Shown: positions 23,749 to 52,229 of the stretch, piece after piece | Layout: each line of letters begins with the position of its first letter | Position numbering within the stretch: the first letter of the stretch is position 1 | Assembly (NCBI RefSeq): GCF_900101165.1 | Contig: NZ_FNFK01000001.1 | Coordinates: forward strand, 1 to 64,000 | DNA from: Alkalibacterium thalassium | GTDB taxonomy: Bacteria > Bacillota > Bacilli > Lactobacillales > Carnobacteriaceae_A | Direction: 5' to 3' | Length of the DNA: 64,000 bases | Notes under the pieces: generated by a model | What the model saw: the letters and a program-made list of their open reading frames with translations, nothing else | Told to the model about the DNA's origin: nothing | Databases searched by the model: none | Made by a program: the position numbers and the translations under genes

Positions 23749-24198
23749 ATGGCTCGTCTTGATGAATTGAATCAAGAGATGAAAATCGCGATGAAAGCAA
23801 AAGATAAAGAAAAGTTATCTACTATTCGTATGTTGAAATCTGCCTTACAGACCGAACAGATCAATAAGGGAGAAGAACTGACAGAAGAAGACGAATTGAC
23901 CGTTCTTTCTCGTGAGAAAAAACAGCGTGTCGAATCTTTAAATGAGTTCAAAGCGGCCGGTCGTGATGACCTGGTTCTTAAACTCGAAAGAGAAATTGAA
24001 ATCGTCGATGACTATTTGCCGGCTCAGTTAAGCGAAGAAGAAGTTCGTGAAATCGTGCAGGACACGGTGAAACAGACTGGCGCATCCTCAATGAAGGATA
24101 TGGGAAAAGTCATGGGTGCTTTGATGCCTAAAGTAAAAGGTAAAGCTGACGGCAATCTGGTCAGCTCCATCGTCAAAGAAGAACTGAATAAACAATAG
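23749..24198 (+). CDS. yqeY: GatB/YqeY domain protein
   Basis: A 149-residue protein consisting only of the YqeY domain, which is similar to the C-terminal tRNA-contacting domain of GatB. It starts ARLDELNQEMKIAMKAKDK, includes IVDDYLPAQLSEEEV near 83-98 and ends with the conserved GALMPKVKGKADGNLVS-type block (about 123-140). A tRNA-related role is assumed for the family but not proven. It is cotranscribed with rpsU; AAGGTGATTAG precedes the ATG. Confidence 0.93.
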   Translation: MARLDELNQEMKIAMKAKDKEKLSTIRMLKSALQTEQINKGEELTEEDELTVLSREKKQRVESLNEFKAAGRDDLVLKLEREIEIVDDYLPAQLSEEEVREIVQDTVKQTGASSMKDMGKVMGALMPKVKGKADGNLVSSIVKEELNKQ

Positions 24199-24203
24199 AA
24201 AGT

Positions 24204-24250
24204 ACCGCAGCTGTGGGGACATCTCGTCTCCAGTCATCTGCGGTCTTTTT
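24204..24250 (+). terminator. Terminator of rpsU-yqeY
   Basis: ACCGCAG (24204-24210) pairs with CTGCGGT (24238-24244), with an inner GGGGAC/GTCTCC stem, followed by CTTTTTC. Confidence 0.92.
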
Positions 24251-24345
24251 CTAGCTGAAATATATACACATAGTTGTGGTCACACCTTATCTTGATGATA
24301 TAAGTGTACTTATGTGATTTTATCAGTGAAATTTTTTGCGCAAAA

Positions 24346-24602
24346 TCAATAGCTCTTCAACTCCAGCTGGACTCCTGTCCGAGCTCCGGTGCAATCGCCA
24401 TAGCCCCTTAACTCAAATGGAAATCCTGTCCGAGTTCCAGTGCAATCGCGATAGCGCCTTAACTCAAATGATAATCCTAGCTGAGTTCCGGTGCAATCGC
24501 CAGAGCGCCTTAACTCAAATGGAAATCCTGTTCGAGTTCCGGTGCAATCGCCATAGCGCCTTAACTCAAATGGAAATTCTGTCCGAGTTACAGTGCAATC
24601 CA
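24346..24602. repeat. Family A tandem repeat array 1 (five 51-bp units)
   Basis: Five direct copies have exact 51-bp spacing; the AACTC anchors are at 24359, 24410, 24461, 24512 and 24563. Each unit contains GAGTTCCGGTGCAATCGC (or a one- to three-base variant) and an AACTC...GAGTT inverted repeat. The array lies in the gap between the yqeY terminator and phoH, about 150 bp before phoH. Because 51 is divisible by three, long open frames arise on both strands; they have no ribosome sites and are not called as genes. Confidence 0.95.
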
Positions 24603-24759: not shown

Positions 24760-25752
24760 TTGACTGAATCAATCGAAAAAAGACGTATAGAACTTGAAGA
24801 TTCTGAGAGATTATTTACACTTTTTGGTCCTCAGAATAGTCATTTGAATTTGATAGAAGAAGAACTGGACGTATCGATCAATAGTCGAGGCACTCAAATG
24901 GACGTTCAAGGCACCCCTGAAGCAATCAGTCAGGTAGAAGCGCTGTTTGAACAGCTGCTGACTCTTGATGACAAAGGGATCAAAGTAAAAAAAGCAGATA
25001 TTATTTCAGCTATCAGGATGGCTAAACAGGGAAAACTTTCTCAGTTTGTCAGAATGTACGAAGAAGAGATCACTAGAGATAAAGATGGTAAAGCGATTCG
25101 AGTGAAAAACGTCGGCCAGCGCGATTATGTCGAGTCGATCAAGAAGAACGATATCGTCTTCGGCATTGGTCCGGCCGGAACAGGAAAAACGTTCATTGCT
25201 GTTGCAATGGCAGTGGCCGCCATGAGAAAAGGGGATGTGAAACGTATTGTCATTACCCGCCCGGCGGTTGAAGCTGGAGAGAATCTTGGATTTCTACCTG
25301 GAGATCTTAAGGAAAAAGTCGATCCGTATCTGAGACCACTGTATGATGCCTTGTATACCGTCTTTGGCACCGAACATACGAATCGTCTGATCGAAAGAGA
25401 AACGATCGAGGTCGCACCTCTGGCATACATGAGAGGCCGTACGCTGGATGATGCCTTCATTATTCTTGATGAGGCTCAGAATACGACTGTGCAGCAGATG
25501 AAAATGTTCCTGACTCGTCTGGGGTTCAATTCCAAGATGGTCATCAATGGAGACATCACCCAAGTCGATCTGCCGAGACGGACGACAAGCGGTCTGATCC
25601 ATGCTGAACGTGTACTGACTGGAGTTAAAGGAATTGGTCATATCAAATTTGAAGCTGAAGATGTTATCAGACATCCACTGGTCGCAAAAGTGATCAGAGC
25701 TTACGACAATGAAACGGATAGGGAAGATTATGGAAACGATAATTTACGATGA
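24760..25752 (+). CDS. phoH: PhoH-like ATPase
   Basis: A 330-residue cytosolic P-loop ATPase. An N-terminal region of about 100 residues, KH-like in other PhoH proteins, precedes the ATPase domain with Walker A GPAGTGKT near 136-143 and Walker B IILDEAQNTT near 235-244. It is linked to RNA metabolism and ribosome assembly by its constant company with ybeY and era. The start is a TTG after AAGGAGATGTCACCTGG. The 3' end overlaps ybeY by 23 bp, opening a tight operon phoH-ybeY-dgkA-cdd-era-recO. Confidence 0.94.
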   Translation: MTESIEKRRIELEDSERLFTLFGPQNSHLNLIEEELDVSINSRGTQMDVQGTPEAISQVEALFEQLLTLDDKGIKVKKADIISAIRMAKQGKLSQFVRMYEEEITRDKDGKAIRVKNVGQRDYVESIKKNDIVFGIGPAGTGKTFIAVAMAVAAMRKGDVKRIVITRPAVEAGENLGFLPGDLKEKVDPYLRPLYDALYTVFGTEHTNRLIERETIEVAPLAYMRGRTLDDAFIILDEAQNTTVQQMKMFLTRLGFNSKMVINGDITQVDLPRRTTSGLIHAERVLTGVKGIGHIKFEAEDVIRHPLVAKVIRAYDNETDREDYGNDNLR

Positions 25753-35554: not shown

Positions 35555-37420
35555 GTGAGCAGGATTCCAGAAGAAACCATTCAGTCGATCCGGGAGAAGA
35601 CTGATATTGTTCAGATTATTTCCCAGTATCTGCAGTTAAGGAAGTCAGGTCAGAACTATTTTGCATCCTGTCCGTTCCACGATGACAAGACGCCTTCATT
35701 TTCTGTCAGTGAGAAGAAGCAGATCTATCATTGCTTCAGCTGTGGAAGAGGCGGGAATGTCTTCAGCTTCCTCCAGGAAATGGAAGGCTTGTCTTTTGTT
35801 GAAGCGGTAGGGAAAACTGCTGAGCTGGCTGATGTGCCGATCGATTTCACTCTGATTGACCGAGCAAGGGAGTCAGCGCCAGATCCGGATTCGATGCAGG
35901 CAAAGTTACTGGCTGTCTACGAAAAAGCGGAGTATTTTTATCATCACCTACTCGTTAATACGCAGACGGGTGAAGAAGCTTACCGTTACCTTCTTGATAG
36001 AGGAATGACTAAGGAGAGCATCGAGACCTTTAAAATCGGGTTTTCTCCTCCTAAAAGAGAAGCACTGAAACTATATCTCGATAATGAAGGATTGAACGAT
36101 CCGGAGCTGTTGAAAAAATCCGGTCTGTTTTCTGACCGGGAGGATGATGTTTTTCTTGACCGCTTTTCCAACCGGATTCTGTTCCCAATAAATAATGCAA
36201 AAGGGCAGACGGTCGCATTTTCTGGTCGTGCCTTTATGGAGCAGTCCGGCAATTACCGGACTGCAAAATATATGAATAGCCCGGAAACAGATCTGTTCAA
36301 TAAACGACGGGTACTGTTCAATTACGATAAAGCCCGTGCATCGATCCGCCGCGAAAATGAAGTCATTCTTTTTGAAGGGTTTATGGATGTCATATCAGCC
36401 TGGCAGGCGGGAGTCAAAAACGGGATCGCGTCGATGGGAACAAGTCTAACAGAAGAACAGATCTCCGTACTTGATAAAGTGACCGATCATGTGGTCATTG
36501 CTTATGATGGGGATGATGCCGGACTTGAAGCAACTAAGCGGGCGACAGATTTCATCAGCAAGGATACACATTTTACCATGGAGATAGCGACCTTTCCTGA
36601 GAAACTTGATCCGGATGATTATATTCAGACCAAAGGAATAGAAGCTTTTCAGGATTTTCTGAAACATGGCCGAGACACTCTGATGAGTTTCCTTATGGCT
36701 TACCACCGCAAAGGTCTCAATTTGAAAAATGAAAGTGAACGTCTGAAATATATTGAAATTGTGCTGAAAGAACTGGCTCGAGTGACCTCTGCAATTGAAC
36801 GGGAACTCTATCTTAAACAGCTTCAAGACGAATTCGATCTGTCTCTAGAGACATTGAAGGAACAGATGCATACCTTTGTGATCGAACAGCAGAACGAGCG
36901 TCGGGCTGAAAAGCGTAAAGAAGCAAGAGCGGACACTTCACCGGAGCCGGTCCAGTCTATCGTATTTCACCGGAACCAACCGAAAGAAACAGCGCTGATC
37001 CGGGCCGAAAAAAATCTTCTCCATCGTCTGTTTACTCTGGATGAAACTTGGACGATACTGAATAGTCAGGATAAAGAGCTGTCATTTTCAGATCAGGATC
37101 ATCAGGTGCTCTATCTGATGTATGATGAGTTTCACCATTCTCATGAAGACACGTCTCTGCAGTCGTTTCTTGACTTCCTTCCAGATGAACGTCTGAAAAG
37201 CAAGGCATCAGAAATTGCCTGGATATCTCTGAGTGAAGAAATAGCTCCTGGTGAAATTGAGGACTACTTGTCTGTGATCTGTGACAGGCAGCCGCTTGAA
37301 ACCAGACTTCAGTCAAAAAAAGAAGAACTGAAACTGGCTGAAAGAAATGGAGATAAACAGAAGCAGCAAGCACTAAGTTTTGAAATCATAAATATAATTA
37401 AACAAATGAAAAGCAATTAA
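35555..37420 (+). CDS. dnaG: DNA primase
   Basis: A 621-residue primase that makes RNA primers for replication. The N-terminal zinc-binding CHC2 domain has [11 protein letters not shown] and HCFSCGRGG (about 40-65). The RNA polymerase core with TOPRIM motif ([15 protein letters not shown], near 270-285) and a C-terminal helicase-interaction domain (about 450-621) follow. The start is a GTG after GAAGGGGGATGGCTA. It forms the conserved dnaG-rpoD operon. Confidence 0.97.
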
Positions 37421-46724: not shown

Positions 46725-49700
46725 TGGCAACTATTCCATCAAAGCCGGCTGATGCCCAATTTACGGATCATCAGTGGCAGGCAATTTATGATGAAGGCAA
46801 GAATATCCTGGTCTCTGCTTCTGCAGGGTCCGGAAAAACGACCGTCCTTGTGCAGCGAGTCATTGAAAAGATCAAAAACTTTACGGACATTAATGAACTG
46901 CTTGTCGTGACATATACTAATGCCGCAGCAAGAGAAATGAAAGAACGGATCCAGAAAGCCATTCAGAAGGAACTCAACGCTGAAACGGATCCTAAGAAAA
47001 AGCAGCATCTAATTCGTCAGATTCCTCTTTTAGGTCATGCAGACATTTCGACCTTGCATTCATTCTGTCTGAAAGTGATCAAACGCTACTATTATCTAAT
47101 CGACTTCGATCCCGTCTTTCGACTGCTGACTGACGATACAGAAATTGCTCTCATGAAAGAAGATGTCTGGGAGGAACTGAGAGAGGAATTATACGGCGAA
47201 GAAGATTCTTTGTTTGAAGCACTGGCTCAGGCGTACTCAAATGACCGCAGTGATGACGGGCTGACTGATCTTATCTTCAAACTTTATGATTTTTCACGGT
47301 CCAAGACTGATTCAAAAGCGTGGCTCTCAGACTTGTCCAGCCGATATGAAATGGAAGGGGGCGACTTGTCCAGCAGTACCATTTTCCAGGAACTGGCCAA
47401 GCCTGCAATTCTGGATACGTTGGACACTGCTAAGGAACTTCTAAGCGATGCTCATCAGATGAGTAATGGCGATTTGTCACTTGATAAGACGGTTGAGCTG
47501 CTTGTGAATGACCTGGAGCTGGTCGAACGGGCTGAACAGGCTATCCATGAAGACCGTCTCAATGATGTATACAGTTTACTGAATGGCCCAATATTCCCAA
47601 GATGGAAAAATCCAGGCAAACATTCACCTGATGAAGTCAAGGAAGCCGCTAAGGAAATGAAAAGCTTCCGAGATAAAGCCAAATCCTTTGTCGTTTCCTT
47701 AAGAGACGACTATTTCCTATTATCACCCGATGAACAAGCGGAAACGATGAGTGCAGTAAAAGGACTCGTTGAAGAACTATCTCGTGTGGCAGTACTGTTT
47801 TACGACCGCTACCAGCAGCATAAAGCAGACAGAAAAGTGCTGGACTTTAACGATCTGGAGCATCTGACCCTGGCCATTCTTATTGATGCTGATGACGGAC
47901 AGTCAGTACCTTCCGAAGCCTCCAGGCATTACCGCAGACAGTTTGCTGAAGTGATGGTCGATGAGTATCAGGATATCAACCTGATTCAGGAAACGATTTT
48001 GAAATGGCTGACTCGTTCATCTGACGATATCGGGAATCAGTTCATGGTGGGGGACGTCAAGCAGTCCATATACTCTTTCAGGCTAGCTGATCCTAGTCTT
48101 TTCATTGAGAAATACGAACGATACGAAAAAAGTCAGGATGGGGACCGGATCATTTTAGCTGAAAATTTCCGCTCACGTCCGGAAGTGCTTCAGTTTACCA
48201 ATTTCATTTTCGAACAGTTGATGGACAAAAAAGTGGGCGAACTGGACTATGATGAATCGGCTAAACTGATCAACAGGTTTACTGCCTTTCCGGAATCGGA
48301 TCGCTTCTCTGCCGATGTTCTGATATATGAAACAGAAGAAGAGGAATCTGAAGAAGATAGCGATTCTCTGGAGAGCGACAGTGTTTCGTTTCAGATGAAC
48401 ACAAAGACCAAAGGCGAAATATACATGGTTGCCGATAAAATTCTTGAAATGGTCGCTAGTGGATATGAGGTTTATGATAAAGAGCTGAAAGCCAACAGAC
48501 CTGTGCAGTTCAGGGATATTGTGCTTCTCACACCAACAAAGAAAAATAATATTGATATTCAGGATATCTTTAAACAGCTTCAGATCCCGACAGCTGTGAA
48601 TGATACTCAGAACTATTTCCAGACCACTGAGATAGCAATCATGATGTCACTGCTTAAGGTCATAGATAATCCGAAACAGGATATTCCGCTTGCTGCAGTT
48701 CTTCGCTCACCCATGGTCGGTCTTAACGAAGTCGACATGGCTCGCATCCGCATCGAAGATAAGCAGGGCACGTATTTTGAAGCGCTGCAGGCTTTTGTCA
48801 GTCGGACAAACTGGCAAGATGAAGCAAATATCAAATTGCAGGAGAAACTAATCCAGTTTTATCAGAAGCTTGAACACTGGCGGACTCAGTCCAAGCGAAA
48901 ATCGTTGGTCGAACTGATCTGGATGATATACGAAGACACTGGTTTCCTGCATTATGTCGGAGGCATGAGTTCCGGCAGACAGAGAAAAGCCAATCTACAT
49001 GCCCTATACGAACGTGCGGCTTCATATGAAAAAACGTCATTTAAGGGCTTGTTCCAGTTTATCCGATTTATCGAAAAGATGCAGAAAAAAGACAAAGATC
49101 TCGCTGAACCATCAGCCGTAACCGATGGGGAGGATGCGGTCAGAGTCATGACGATACATGCCAGTAAAGGGCTTGAATTTCCGATCGTATTTGTCATGGA
49201 TATGTCCAAGCGATTCAACCTGATGGATATCAGAGGCTCTACCGTGCTTGATGAAGAATACGGGGTCGGATCAGAATATATCGACGTCACGAACCGGATC
49301 AAAACGCCGACTTTGCCGGAAACAGTTTTGAAAATGCAGAAGAAGAACCGGATTTTATCTGAACAGATGCGGGTCTTATATGTAGCTTTGACACGGGCTG
49401 AACAGAAACTGTTCCTGGTTGGATCCTACAAAAATAAAGAAACGGCTATCAGCAAATGGAACAAGGTGAGTGGGCATGCTCAAACTGTTCTGCCACCAGC
49501 ATTAAGGCTTGATTCTCAGCATTTCATGGACTGGATTGGTCAATGCCTGATCAGGCACCAGAACATGGAAGCAGAAAGCGAAATCAAGTCCCAGAATAGA
49601 TGGGTCCACACTTATGACACGTCGTTTACTGTCTCATTTTACCAGTCGACTGAACTCGAAGAGCATCTGATCAGCTATCAGAATGAAGAAAGCAGTAACT

Positions 49701-50506
49701 GGTTTGAGGACCTGAAACAAGGGAAAATGAAGGAGTCAGATAACGAGACAGTGAAAGCAGCTGTATCGCAGGCCCTTAGTCTAATGGCTTTTGAGTACCC
49801 ATATGAGCTGGCTACTCAGACCACCAGTTACCAGTCCGTGTCCGAGATTAAACGCATGTTTGAAGAACCGGATGACGGACAGATGGTGAAAATTGATGTA
49901 ACGAATCCTAGACAGTCCAACAGGTACGTTGAAGATGAACTGGAGCGGCCCAAGTTTCTACAGGAGGTATTGAAACCAAGCGGAGCAGAAATCGGTAAAG
50001 CCACCCATCTGGTACTGCAGGCTATTGACTTGAATGAATCGCTAACTGCTGATGATATAAAAGCTGAGGTAAATAAACTTGCTTCTGAAAAAGTCATCAC
50101 TGAAGATATTGCTGAGCTAATACCTGTAGAAAAAATCGACCGATTTTTCCAGACAACATTTGGGCGCTATATATTAGGCCATGTTTCGTCAATGAAGAGG
50201 GAAGTGCCGTTCTCACTTCTCCTGGAAGCTAGAGATATTTTTCAGGATATGCAGGCAGTGGATGACAATGTACTGATTCACGGGATTATCGACGGCTATA
50301 TTGAAGGGGAAGAAGGCCTCATTCTCTTTGACTATAAGACAGACAATGTTGAACGCTTCCAGGATAGAGCTGAAGAAGAAATGCTTAAAAAATATAAAGG
50401 TCAGCTCATGCTGTACAAGCAGGCACTGGAATCGATACTGAGAAAACCAGTACTCGAGACATACTTGGTTCTGCTGGATAATGGCCAGACGATTCAGGTG
50501 GACTAG
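46724..50506 (+). CDS. addA: ATP-dependent helicase/nuclease subunit AddA (RexA)
   Basis: A 1260-residue UvrD-like helicase plus RecB-type nuclease. Walker A SASAGSGKTTVL is near 31-42, MVDEYQDIN near 405-413, GDVKQSIYSFR near 442-452, VMTIHASKGLEFP near 806-818, and the nuclease motif LFDYKTDNV near 1203-1211. All motifs look intact. The acidic insert TEEEESEEDSDSLESDS (about 545) is unusual but lies in a variable region. It overlaps addB by one base, so stoichiometric coupled translation is likely. A terminator follows. Confidence 0.97.
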   Translation: MATIPSKPADAQFTDHQWQAIYDEGKNILVSASAGSGKTTVLVQRVIEKIKNFTDINELLVVTYTNAAAREMKERIQKAIQKELNAETDPKKKQHLIRQIPLLGHADISTLHSFCLKVIKRYYYLIDFDPVFRLLTDDTEIALMKEDVWEELREELYGEEDSLFEALAQAYSNDRSDDGLTDLIFKLYDFSRSKTDSKAWLSDLSSRYEMEGGDLSSSTIFQELAKPAILDTLDTAKELLSDAHQMSNGDLSLDKTVELLVNDLELVERAEQAIHEDRLNDVYSLLNGPIFPRWKNPGKHSPDEVKEAAKEMKSFRDKAKSFVVSLRDDYFLLSPDEQAETMSAVKGLVEELSRVAVLFYDRYQQHKADRKVLDFNDLEHLTLAILIDADDGQSVPSEASRHYRRQFAEVMVDEYQDINLIQETILKWLTRSSDDIGNQFMVGDVKQSIYSFRLADPSLFIEKYERYEKSQDGDRIILAENFRSRPEVLQFTNFIFEQLMDKKVGELDYDESAKLINRFTAFPESDRFSADVLIYETEEEESEEDSDSLESDSVSFQMNTKTKGEIYMVADKILEMVASGYEVYDKELKANRPVQFRDIVLLTPTKKNNIDIQDIFKQLQIPTAVNDTQNYFQTTEIAIMMSLLKVIDNPKQDIPLAAVLRSPMVGLNEVDMARIRIEDKQGTYFEALQAFVSRTNWQDEANIKLQEKLIQFYQKLEHWRTQSKRKSLVELIWMIYEDTGFLHYVGGMSSGRQRKANLHALYERAASYEKTSFKGLFQFIRFIEKMQKKDKDLAEPSAVTDGEDAVRVMTIHASKGLEFPIVFVMDMSKRFNLMDIRGSTVLDEEYGVGSEYIDVTNRIKTPTLPETVLKMQKKNRILSEQMRVLYVALTRAEQKLFLVGSYKNKETAISKWNKVSGHAQTVLPPALRLDSQHFMDWIGQCLIRHQNMEAESEIKSQNRWVHTYDTSFTVSFYQSTELEEHLISYQNEESSNWFEDLKQGKMKESDNETVKAAVSQALSLMAFEYPYELATQTTSYQSVSEIKRMFEEPDDGQMVKIDVTNPRQSNRYVEDELERPKFLQEVLKPSGAEIGKATHLVLQAIDLNESLTADDIKAEVNKLASEKVITEDIAELIPVEKIDRFFQTTFGRYILGHVSSMKREVPFSLLLEARDIFQDMQAVDDNVLIHGIIDGYIEGEEGLILFDYKTDNVERFQDRAEEEMLKKYKGQLMLYKQALESILRKPVLETYLVLLDNGQTIQVD

Positions 50507-50640: not shown

Positions 50641-50890
50641 AAATTCGTTTGAGTGCCTGTGCTTGGACGATTGGACCGGAACTCAGAGTAATAAACCGTT
50701 TGAGTGCCATAGCCTGAGCGATTGCACCGGAACTCAGAGTAATAAACTGTTTGAATACCTGTGCTTACACGATTGCGCCGGAACTCAGAGTAATAAACCG
50801 TTTGAGTACCTGTGCTTGGACGATTGGACCGGAACTCAGAGTAATAAACCGTTTGAGTGCCATAGCCTGAGCGATTGCACCGGAACTCAG
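50641..50890. repeat. Family A tandem repeat array 2 (five 51-bp units, inverted relative to array 1)
   Basis: AACTC anchors at 50680, 50731, 50782, 50833 and 50884 give four spacings of exactly 51 bp. The core GCGATTGCACCGGAACTC is the reverse complement of the array-1 core. Each unit has an ACTCA...TGAGT inverted repeat. Two unit variants occur (CTGTGCTTGGACGATTGGACC and CCATAGCCTGAGCGATTGCACC types); units 1-2 are repeated almost exactly as units 4-5, so a 153-bp duplication is recent. It lies between convergent addA and the glycoside-hydrolase-like gene. Confidence 0.95.
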
Positions 50891-50923
50891 AACAGAAATC
50901 CATCTTAGTGACGTATTTCACAC

Positions 50924-50971
50924 AAAAACCTCTCGAAGTCGTTCATAAGCGAACAACAACGAGAGGTTTTT
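50924..50971. terminator. Bidirectional terminator downstream of repeat array A2
   Basis: AAAAACCTCTCG (50924-50935) pairs with CGAGAGGTTTTT (50960-50971), with an inner GTTC/GAAC stem. Confidence 0.93.
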
Positions 50972-50987
50972 CATTTTTTTTCATCTA

Positions 50988-52229
50988 TTAATCAAAACTG
51001 TAGGTAGCACCTTCAGAGTAACGGTTACCGGCATTCCATAATAGGAACTCATCTACGCCATGTTCGTTCAATGCACGAATCTGTTCACTAACTTCATGAG
51101 CACCATAGGTCGTATACCATCCTGCACCAAGATAAGAAGCTGTAAAGTCCTGGATCCATGGACGGGAAACAGGGGCGCGATCCCCTAAGTTGTCGAGTAC
51201 ATCATTTTCGTATTCCATATAGCGGGAAATAACTTCATACGGTTCCAGATCCGGACGTTCGATCCCTAATGATCCTGCACCCCAGTGACTAGGGTAAATC
51301 ATCGAAGAAATCACGTCGACATTCTCAGAAATTCTTGAAAAGTTCTGACCGATACCAGGAGTTTCTTCTCGCGTTGCAGCATAACCGAAGATATCTACAG
51401 ATACATCGACATCGTAAGGCTGAAGTTCACGGCGAGCATAAGCTACGAATTCAGTTACAGCATCGACACGCTGCTTGACATTATCTAGATCGCTCTCTTC
51501 GTAATCGCCTCGAGAATAGTTCAGGTCTTCATCACGGTATTCAAATCCTTCAGGGAAGCGAACATAGTCGAACTGGATATCCTTAAAGCCAAGCTTAGCT
51601 GCCTGGCGGGCCACTTCAACATTATACTCCCAGACTTCACGTTCATATGGATTGACGAAGCTTTCTCCGCGGCGGTTAGCCCATACGGATCCGTCATCTT
51701 CAGTAAATGACAGATCAGGGCGTTCATTAGCCAGTCTGGAATCTTTAAATACGACAATACGTGCAATTGGGTAAATATCGTTTTCCTCTAGATGTTCCAT
51801 CAAAGGTTCAGCTTCAACAATGTTATTAGTGAACTGATTGACGTATTCATGATCGGATTCTATCGGCATGACGATGTCGCCATGATCATCTTTGACATCA
51901 ATAACCATACTGTTGAGTTCTGTTGAGTTGACTAAATCAGTCAATGTTTCCAGTCTGGATCCACCTGCAGAATGGGCAGTGACGAAAATACCTTTCACGC
52001 CGTCTTCTGGATAGTCGATATTTACTCCGCTGTCAAATTTGAACTGACGGGGGAAACTTTCCGGTACAGAAAGAAGGGGGTCTTGAGTATAGTTCAGGTA
52101 AGCTGTCTCGATATCTTCAGGCTGATCAACAGTATCATCTTCATCGGCTGAAACGACTGATGGGGAAAGAGAAGCAACTGCTAATAAGGCTGTAGAGTAA
52201 AATACATGTTTCTTTAAATTAAGTTTCAT
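50988..52229 (-). CDS. Putative secreted glycoside-hydrolase-like protein (PF13200/DUF4015 type)
   Basis: A 413-residue exported protein. A signal peptide (about 1-28, ending VVSA) precedes a TIM-barrel-like domain with conserved GIFVTAHSAGG (about 80-90), VIDVKDDHGDI (near 108-118), QFDYVRFPEG (near 216-225) and a late SMIYPSHWG. The catalytic residues and substrate of the family are not established. It starts with ATG overlapping the stop of the deacetylase gene (TAATG), so the three minus-strand genes YkyA-like, deacetylase and this one form an operon acting at the cell wall. Confidence 0.85.
   Translation of the reverse strand: MKLNLKKHVFYSTALLAVASLSPSVVSADEDDTVDQPEDIETAYLNYTQDPLLSVPESFPRQFKFDSGVNIDYPEDGVKGIFVTAHSAGGSRLETLTDLVNSTELNSMVIDVKDDHGDIVMPIESDHEYVNQFTNNIVEAEPLMEHLEENDIYPIARIVVFKDSRLANERPDLSFTEDDGSVWANRRGESFVNPYEREVWEYNVEVARQAAKLGFKDIQFDYVRFPEGFEYRDEDLNYSRGDYEESDLDNVKQRVDAVTEFVAYARRELQPYDVDVSVDIFGYAATREETPGIGQNFSRISENVDVISSMIYPSHWGAGSLGIERPDLEPYEVISRYMEYENDVLDNLGDRAPVSRPWIQDFTASYLGAGWYTTYGAHEVSEQIRALNEHGVDEFLLWNAGNRYSEGATYSFD

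Follow-up and report, generated by a model that had tools for sequence, protein, structure and literature searches.

What is conserved in the repeat arrays described here is an architecture of 51-52-bp units and not the sequence GAGTTCCGGTGCAATCGC; in the 12 genomes of the genus and in a 295-genome sample of the order, arrays of that sequence were found in this species and its sister and nowhere else. The arrays share, across differing sequences, a unit made of a GAGT-type dyad and a linker, a period of 51-52 bp, a phased A+T content and an intergenic location that is enriched between convergent genes. Our tentative explanation, to which we give somewhat less than an even chance, is that these helix-phased dyad arrays, placed between transcription units, are sites for DNA docking or wrapping.

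Two arrays of one family lie in the window, i.e. the whole stretch of 64,000 nucleotides that was analysed. Array 1 (approximately 24347..24601, forward strand) consists of five 51-bp units starting at 24347, 24398, 24449, 24500 and 24551, each with a 17-nt linker between two arms of 17 nt. Tandem Repeats Finder (TRF) delimits it at 24373-24600, with a period of 51, 4.5 copies, 87% matches and 0 indels. The original prediction was of exactly five copies spaced 51 bp apart that share a core. The spacing holds for all five, the fifth GAGTT box (24585) being in register, but the core holds only loosely since its 18 bp recur with 0-1 mismatch each at 24381, 24432, 24483 and 24534 and with four mismatches in the fifth copy. 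The AACTC...GAGTT inverted repeat that had been predicted as well is present in this array. Matches to the core with up to three mismatches number 10 in the window, as compared to 0.03 expected from shuffles, nine of them inside the two arrays and the tenth a single one at 36791. On the left of array 1 is yqeY (23749..24198, forward strand; Pfam PF09424, E 5.5e-55), followed by a terminator-like hairpin with a T run found by rule-based detection (approximately 24204..24251, forward strand). On its right is phoH (24760..25752, forward strand; Pfam PF02562, E 6e-97), upstream of which a -10-like TGCTATnAT box is, by eye, retained in 12/12 species.

Array 2 (50646..50891, reverse strand), which is absent from the original prediction, belongs to the same family in the opposite orientation; TRF assigns it 4.8 copies and a period of 51, and two unit types alternate along it. 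It is located between two convergent genes. The left-hand neighbour, of which the 3' part spans 47501..50506 on the forward strand, encodes a UvrD-type helicase/nuclease (Pfam UvrD and PDDEXK_1; whole ORF of ~1260 codons) that may be AddA-like judging from its domains. The right-hand neighbour is a DUF4015 gene (50988..52229, reverse strand; PF13200, E 8.3e-118), which an unstranded terminator-like hairpin (approximately 50924..50972) separates from the array.

The genome from which the window comes (G000, a 2.36-Mb assembly) contains at least 11 arrays, including these two. A search of it with R1, a sequence-only model of the units, added arrays on contigs C109, C48, C96, C62, C44, C49, C87 and C67, and a later pattern search found one on C32 that belongs to a different sequence family. 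When laid out, the arrays hold the 51-bp register, the one on C67 having two units only. The array on C48 (L070) reads N in part. The consensus of 49 units from G000 and G007 is nnATAGCnCCGGAACTC (arm), AAAnGGAAAAnCnnnCT (linker) and GAGTTCnGGTGCAATCG (arm), in which the stretch from GAGT to the next ACTC forms an imperfect dyad of 34 bp that is followed by a 17-bp linker. G007 is the genus-mate Alkalibacterium pelagium DSM 19183, and its shared loci with G000 display ~85-97% DNA identity, which places the window in an Alkalibacterium close to A. pelagium. Seven of the G000 arrays (C61a, C61b, C109, C62, C44, C49 and C87) have a counterpart in G007, as determined by BLASTN and by eye, and the unit number, also counted by eye, is lower in G007 in all seven orthologous pairs (e.g. 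5/2 for yqeY-phoH, 7/3, 5/1 and 3/1). The view that the array is repeated and maintained is borne out. In the other 10 of 12 species, the yqeY-phoH gap is shorter and without array, with the phoH promoter-like box kept. Similarly, the site of the C44 array is devoid of array in G011 and G003, where an upstream gene resembling the one for Cu/Zn superoxide dismutase in G000 is kept.

Arrays of the same period between genes of related genera, which the original prediction suggested looking for, were found. R2, a model built from the 49 units, gave weak matches in other genera, several of them exactly 51 bp apart, and the loci behind these matches are arrays that have different arms and the same ACTC-17-GAGT core and period. 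A scan of the order for the pattern ACTC-N17-GAGT-N(11-41)-ACTC-N17-GAGT, which allows periods of 36-66 bp, matched 24/395 Lactobacillales genomes and left 371/395 without a match. Nineteen of the 24 are 10 of the 12 Alkalibacterium genomes, three genomes of the same family (G013, G019 and G021) and six of the genus g30, which belongs to a second family. In the latter, the pattern was found in 6/6 genomes of g30 and in 0/12 of other genera. Neighbouring pairs in loci fetched from 19 genomes have a period of 51 (50 pairs) or 52 (12 pairs) in widely differing sequences, a tally in which some pairs are counted twice (L209 and L210 overlap L187 and L190), and one match in G004 has, among the places listed, a period of 53. 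Periods of 40, 41, 44, 45, 55 and 60 all came from loci of G058, G171, G299, G303 and G314; the match in G171 was set aside because it lies inside a coding 15-bp repeat, and those in the other four genomes, whose period is not 51, were left out as other repeats. As a control, the reversed pattern gave a single match in each of eight genomes, one of which (G006) is an Alkalibacterium, whereas three genomes of the genus g12 gave 7, 8 and 11 matches. The patchiness of the arrays, considering the 371 Lactobacillales genomes and the 12 genomes from other genera of the second family without a match, argues against an essential role.

Two of the fetched loci have features of their own. In L173 (2278-2960), an array of ~13 units appears by eye to contain a duplicated block of several units, a trace of unequal recombination, and in L172 (3102-3352) a 51-bp array of G090 is adjoined by a separate tandem repeat with a unit of 121 bp (2.1 copies, 98% matches). 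Outside the order, with the gap restricted to 24-29, two of 398 genomes matched in a class-level sample (G000 and G743) and two of 398 in a phylum-level sample (G000 and G813), both samples including some Lactobacillales. The locus in G743, a 6.8-Mb genome from another family of the class, is a tandem array of 52-bp units that no ORF of at least 90 codons spans (L211, G743:C1:5435055 on); it could be a distant parallel or have no relation to the others. The locus in G813 is a 51-bp array of four near-identical copies, also without an ORF of at least 90 codons across it (L290, G813:C57:3149 on), and may be unrelated as well. Carriage by phages was considered and rejected, an exact scan of IMG/VR with a gap of 26 only having returned a single pair on each of two contigs, and these pairs resemble chance matches rather than arrays. 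A search of plasmid records with one G090 array gave no match.

In order to lessen the circularity that comes with the GAGT pattern, TRF was run motif-free on long stretches of sequence (periods from 20 to 200, minimum of 1.8 copies). In 400 kb of Alkalibacterium (G004, G005, G006 and G011), 6/8 tandem repeats have a period of 51/52, or 5/7 without the one (G004:C1) that was known beforehand, as opposed to 0/9 in 400 kb of other Lactobacillales used as controls (G051, G039 and G171); G090 and G021, sampled over 200 kb apiece, contained no 51/52 repeat (0/4). G005 and G006 had given no match to the GAGT pattern in the order scan, and two arrays in G006 have GAAGGA-type end boxes in place of GAGT and still a period of 52. 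Therefore, it is the period that is constant, while GAGT is common but not universal.

Units of the GAGT type consist of a dyad that runs from GAGT to ACTC, 34 (35) bp in length, and of a linker of 17 (18) bp. Complementarity of the inner pairs is 0.475, compared with 0.253 +- 0.026 after within-cluster shuffling of columns (124 dyads in 18 clusters, chance loci removed). The strongest pairs, with z about 5, are those at positions 11 and 12, one helical turn inside GAGT, followed by 9 and 6, and positions 15-17 are at chance. The A+T profile of 108 units from 18 clusters peaks at the linker centre, near 35 and near 43-44, with G+C in between. Its amplitude at 10.2 bp with the anchors excluded, measured on families picked by the GAGT pattern, is 22.0, whereas 20,000 segment rotations, a null that ignores kinship between clusters that may share distant ancestry, average 0.76 and never exceed 7.7. 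The best A+T period is ~10.4 bp, with a fixed phase relative to the anchors, and the starts of GAGT and ACTC are 21 and 30 bp apart, i.e. near two and three turns, which together indicate that one unit corresponds to five helical turns. Single arrays analysed without anchors give a weaker signal, in which harmonic 5 is 0.062 vs 0.040 +- 0.006 (z 3.5) and harmonic 7, at 0.074, is above it and is the largest in 12/40 arrays vs 9/40 for harmonic 5. In the five arrays of G005/G006, harmonic 5 is 0.03, 0.10, 0.08, 0.05 and 0.01.

Among 49 classified arrays, 24 are between convergent ORFs, 18 between co-directional ones and seven between divergent ones, as opposed to 32, 223 and 49, respectively, for 304 background gaps of at least 100 bp, taken from the window plus 800 kb of sequence from six genomes with arrays, ORFs being called by length only (at least 90 codons). 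This excess of convergent gaps (24/49 vs 32/304; Fisher p 2e-9) persists when three G007 orthologues are removed (22/46, p 1e-8), and the count of 24/49 still includes orthologous arrays of species other than G000/G007 (L188 and L191 look like one). The set derives from 50 arrays listed by hand, of which L069, at a contig end, was dropped; left out of the count are L078 and L079 (orthologues of the window arrays), L180, L181 and L200, as well as repeats of listed arrays (L101-L105, L189, L198, L209 and L210). In G000 and G007, terminator-like hairpins identified by a permissive rule are found on 17 of the 22 array sides that face the 3' end of a gene; when the bases of these segments are shuffled 40 times, the count is 2.7 +- 1.6 and never above 7.

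The original prediction offered three readings, a protein-binding array, a source of structured RNA or a selfish tandem repeat, which have fared differently. Binding or wrapping by a protein fits best because the dyads show no excess of compensatory pairing, are helically phased and lie between transcription units. In such a scenario, a protein that binds or wraps DNA as a dimer or multimer would make its contacts along the array on a single face of the helix and act at gene ends, where positive supercoils would gather. The recognition dyad would drift between lineages, and unequal recombination or slippage would homogenize the dyads within each array, also altering the copy number. By analogy with BIME-2 in E. 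coli, the likeliest partners would be DNA gyrase or a nucleoid protein, binding by gyrase or by any other protein being an inference. Gyrase of E. coli has a motif of 130 bp in which G/C content is phased, and BIME-2 is enriched in gyrase cleavage sites and shows a gyrase signal that rises when transcription is blocked (PMC6379681, available sections). The latter finding argues against simple supercoil relief, which may be wrong, and a fixed strong gyrase site would be favoured instead. Wrapping by gyrase is tied to deformable or phased DNA in the accessible part of a preprint (PMC12393610). A bolder extension, which we regard as rather doubtful, is that of a largely sequence-independent architectural code of bacterial chromosomes, in which arrays of five-turn (51-52-bp) units with freely drifting dyads would keep their helical layout and serve as topology or wrapping sites between transcription units, with a fast-evolving putative DNA-binding partner in each lineage.

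The selfish reading is a live rival, nearly equal to that of wrapping or docking sites and likewise short of an even chance. According to it, the arrays would be miniature repeats, selfish or neutral, in the manner of extragenic REP or MITE palindromes that insert where they do no harm, lengthen by slippage and have no role for the host, and the 51-52-bp period would be a product of the array-making machinery. In accord with this, the arrays are lineage-restricted and patchy, there are several families per genome and a single family occupies many loci, unit numbers vary at orthologous loci, the yqeY-phoH array is found in only 2/12 species, and the C44 site is empty in G011 and G003 despite the kept upstream gene; neutral insertions would also be tolerated in convergent gaps. 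However, neutral slippage alone does not predict a single period and a single helical phase in differing sequences, and the distribution of the Y1 transposase (PF01797), with seven matches in G000 and none in array-bearing G007, does not follow that of the arrays. The original prediction of no nearby transposase holds as far as the Y1 type is concerned, for which the sole match on the contig is at 86278, outside the window. The G000 matches, of the IS200/IS605 type, are on C96, C39, C99, C61 (86278), C62 (69356), C42 and C77.

The remaining explanations seem much harder to reconcile with the data. That the arrays are transcribed by read-through into structured RNA hairpins is improbable, even though they fold better than shuffles (22 arrays; mean z of -3.1 for one strand and -3.3 for the other) and one unit of array 1 folds at z -5.8. 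Folding shows on average no strand preference and is near zero or positive on one strand in G006_a, G008, G003 and G137, the z-scores of a unit of array 2 (-0.1 and -0.3) are those expected by chance, RNAalifold gives no consensus structure, and terminator-like hairpins precede the array on the 17 of 22 sides mentioned above. In a test that pairs the two arms of one unit in the window's family, 69.5% of cells are paired vs 73.5% after shuffling, a value reached by 500/500 shuffles, and two-sided changes are fewer (9 cells) than in shuffles (23.3). Rfam gave 0 matches at gathering score for the window and 12 array loci. The folding and pairing results are thus more consistent with symmetric half-sites read by a protein than with an RNA stem. 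A shade less probable still is that the arrays are operators bound by a transcription regulator of the adjoining genes, although dyads do amount to two half-sites and some arrays lie upstream of a promoter-like box, e.g. before phoH. Divergent ORFs flank only 7/49 arrays and the yqeY-phoH array is missing in 10/12 species in which the box is kept. Moreover, no common function is apparent among the neighbours Mur ligase, papain-like peptidase, Cu/Zn SOD, glycosyl hydrolase 4, EF-Tu, ribose-5-phosphate isomerase, YqeY, PhoH, the helicase/nuclease and DUF4015. Finally, since 51 is 3 x 17 codons, the repeats could be coding, and array 1, which is open on both strands for 106-111 codons, does not by itself exclude this. 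There is at least one stop-free frame in 16/28 arrays checked, and C109 has open frames, but the other 12 have stops in all six frames and 52-bp units shift the frame with every copy, which makes this explanation very improbable indeed.

No description of such arrays was found among the papers listed from the open literature, subscription papers being mostly outside its scope, and no paper was found there with the letters of the unit sequence. In the available sections of the literature, intergenic palindromic repeats are mainly REP, tied to RAYT and of debated role. A class of repeats in Lactobacillales in which the sequence varies and the helical geometry is constant makes the question of selfishness vs topology testable. 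In the parts available, 'Firmicutes' is not in the main text of a study of RAYT-linked palindromes (PMC3733652), and a study reporting that the enrichment of intergenic stem-loops in low-GC Firmicutes is not due to large repeat families does not have Alkalibacterium in its species list as shown (PMC1590033).

Several known systems nevertheless offer parallels. BIME-2 binds gyrase and IHF, pneumococcal BOX elements are intergenic boxA-boxB-boxC modules with a 45-bp tandem inner unit of variable copy number, and the plasmid centromere sopC consists of 43-bp tandem units, each with an inverted repeat, that are bound by a partition protein. The arrays resemble sopC in having tandem units of similar length with inverted repeats but are dispersed in large numbers on chromosomes and differ in sequence. 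They share with BOX an intergenic tandem unit of variable copy number in a lactic-type Firmicute, but seem by eye to have no distinct end modules and to have flanks that differ between loci. Unlike CRISPR, in which spacers are unique, linkers are alike within each array. The long-range alternation of A/T and G/C in step with the helical repeat is reminiscent of the gyrase motif as described in the available part of PMC6379681, although that motif is degenerate and the arrays add sequence-specific dyads.

The closest likeness is to REP and BIME-2, which, in the accessible sections of two studies, are clustered intergenic palindromes often found in convergent gaps, BIME-2 being a target of gyrase (PMC1525189; PMC6379681). 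Simultaneous transcription of the convergent genes between which REP sequences often lie can raise positive supercoiling (PMC1525189, same sections). The preference of BIME-2 for gene ends and convergent gaps is seen here as well (24/49 vs 32/304), and the 34-35-bp imperfect dyads are within the size of an intergenic REP/RAYT palindrome (~20-40 bp). However, the arrays are head-to-tail with a period of 51-52 bp and their sequence is not conserved between species. The RAYT-linked palindromes described in the available text of PMC3733652 also have tetranucleotide tags (GTAG/CGTC) and families that differ in sequence, in both stem and loop, but spacers in their dimers are mostly 20 to 100 bp, whereas the linker here is 17 (18) bp. 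In place of a GTAG/CGTC tag at one end, there are GAGT and ACTC at both ends (other ends in two G006 arrays), and a cognate Y1 transposase is missing in G007 (0 PF01797), where it may have been lost after spread. Because of these last two differences the arrays are not filed as REP, and we rate them as extragenic palindromic repeats that would be BIME-like in their working and in which geometry is conserved in place of sequence.
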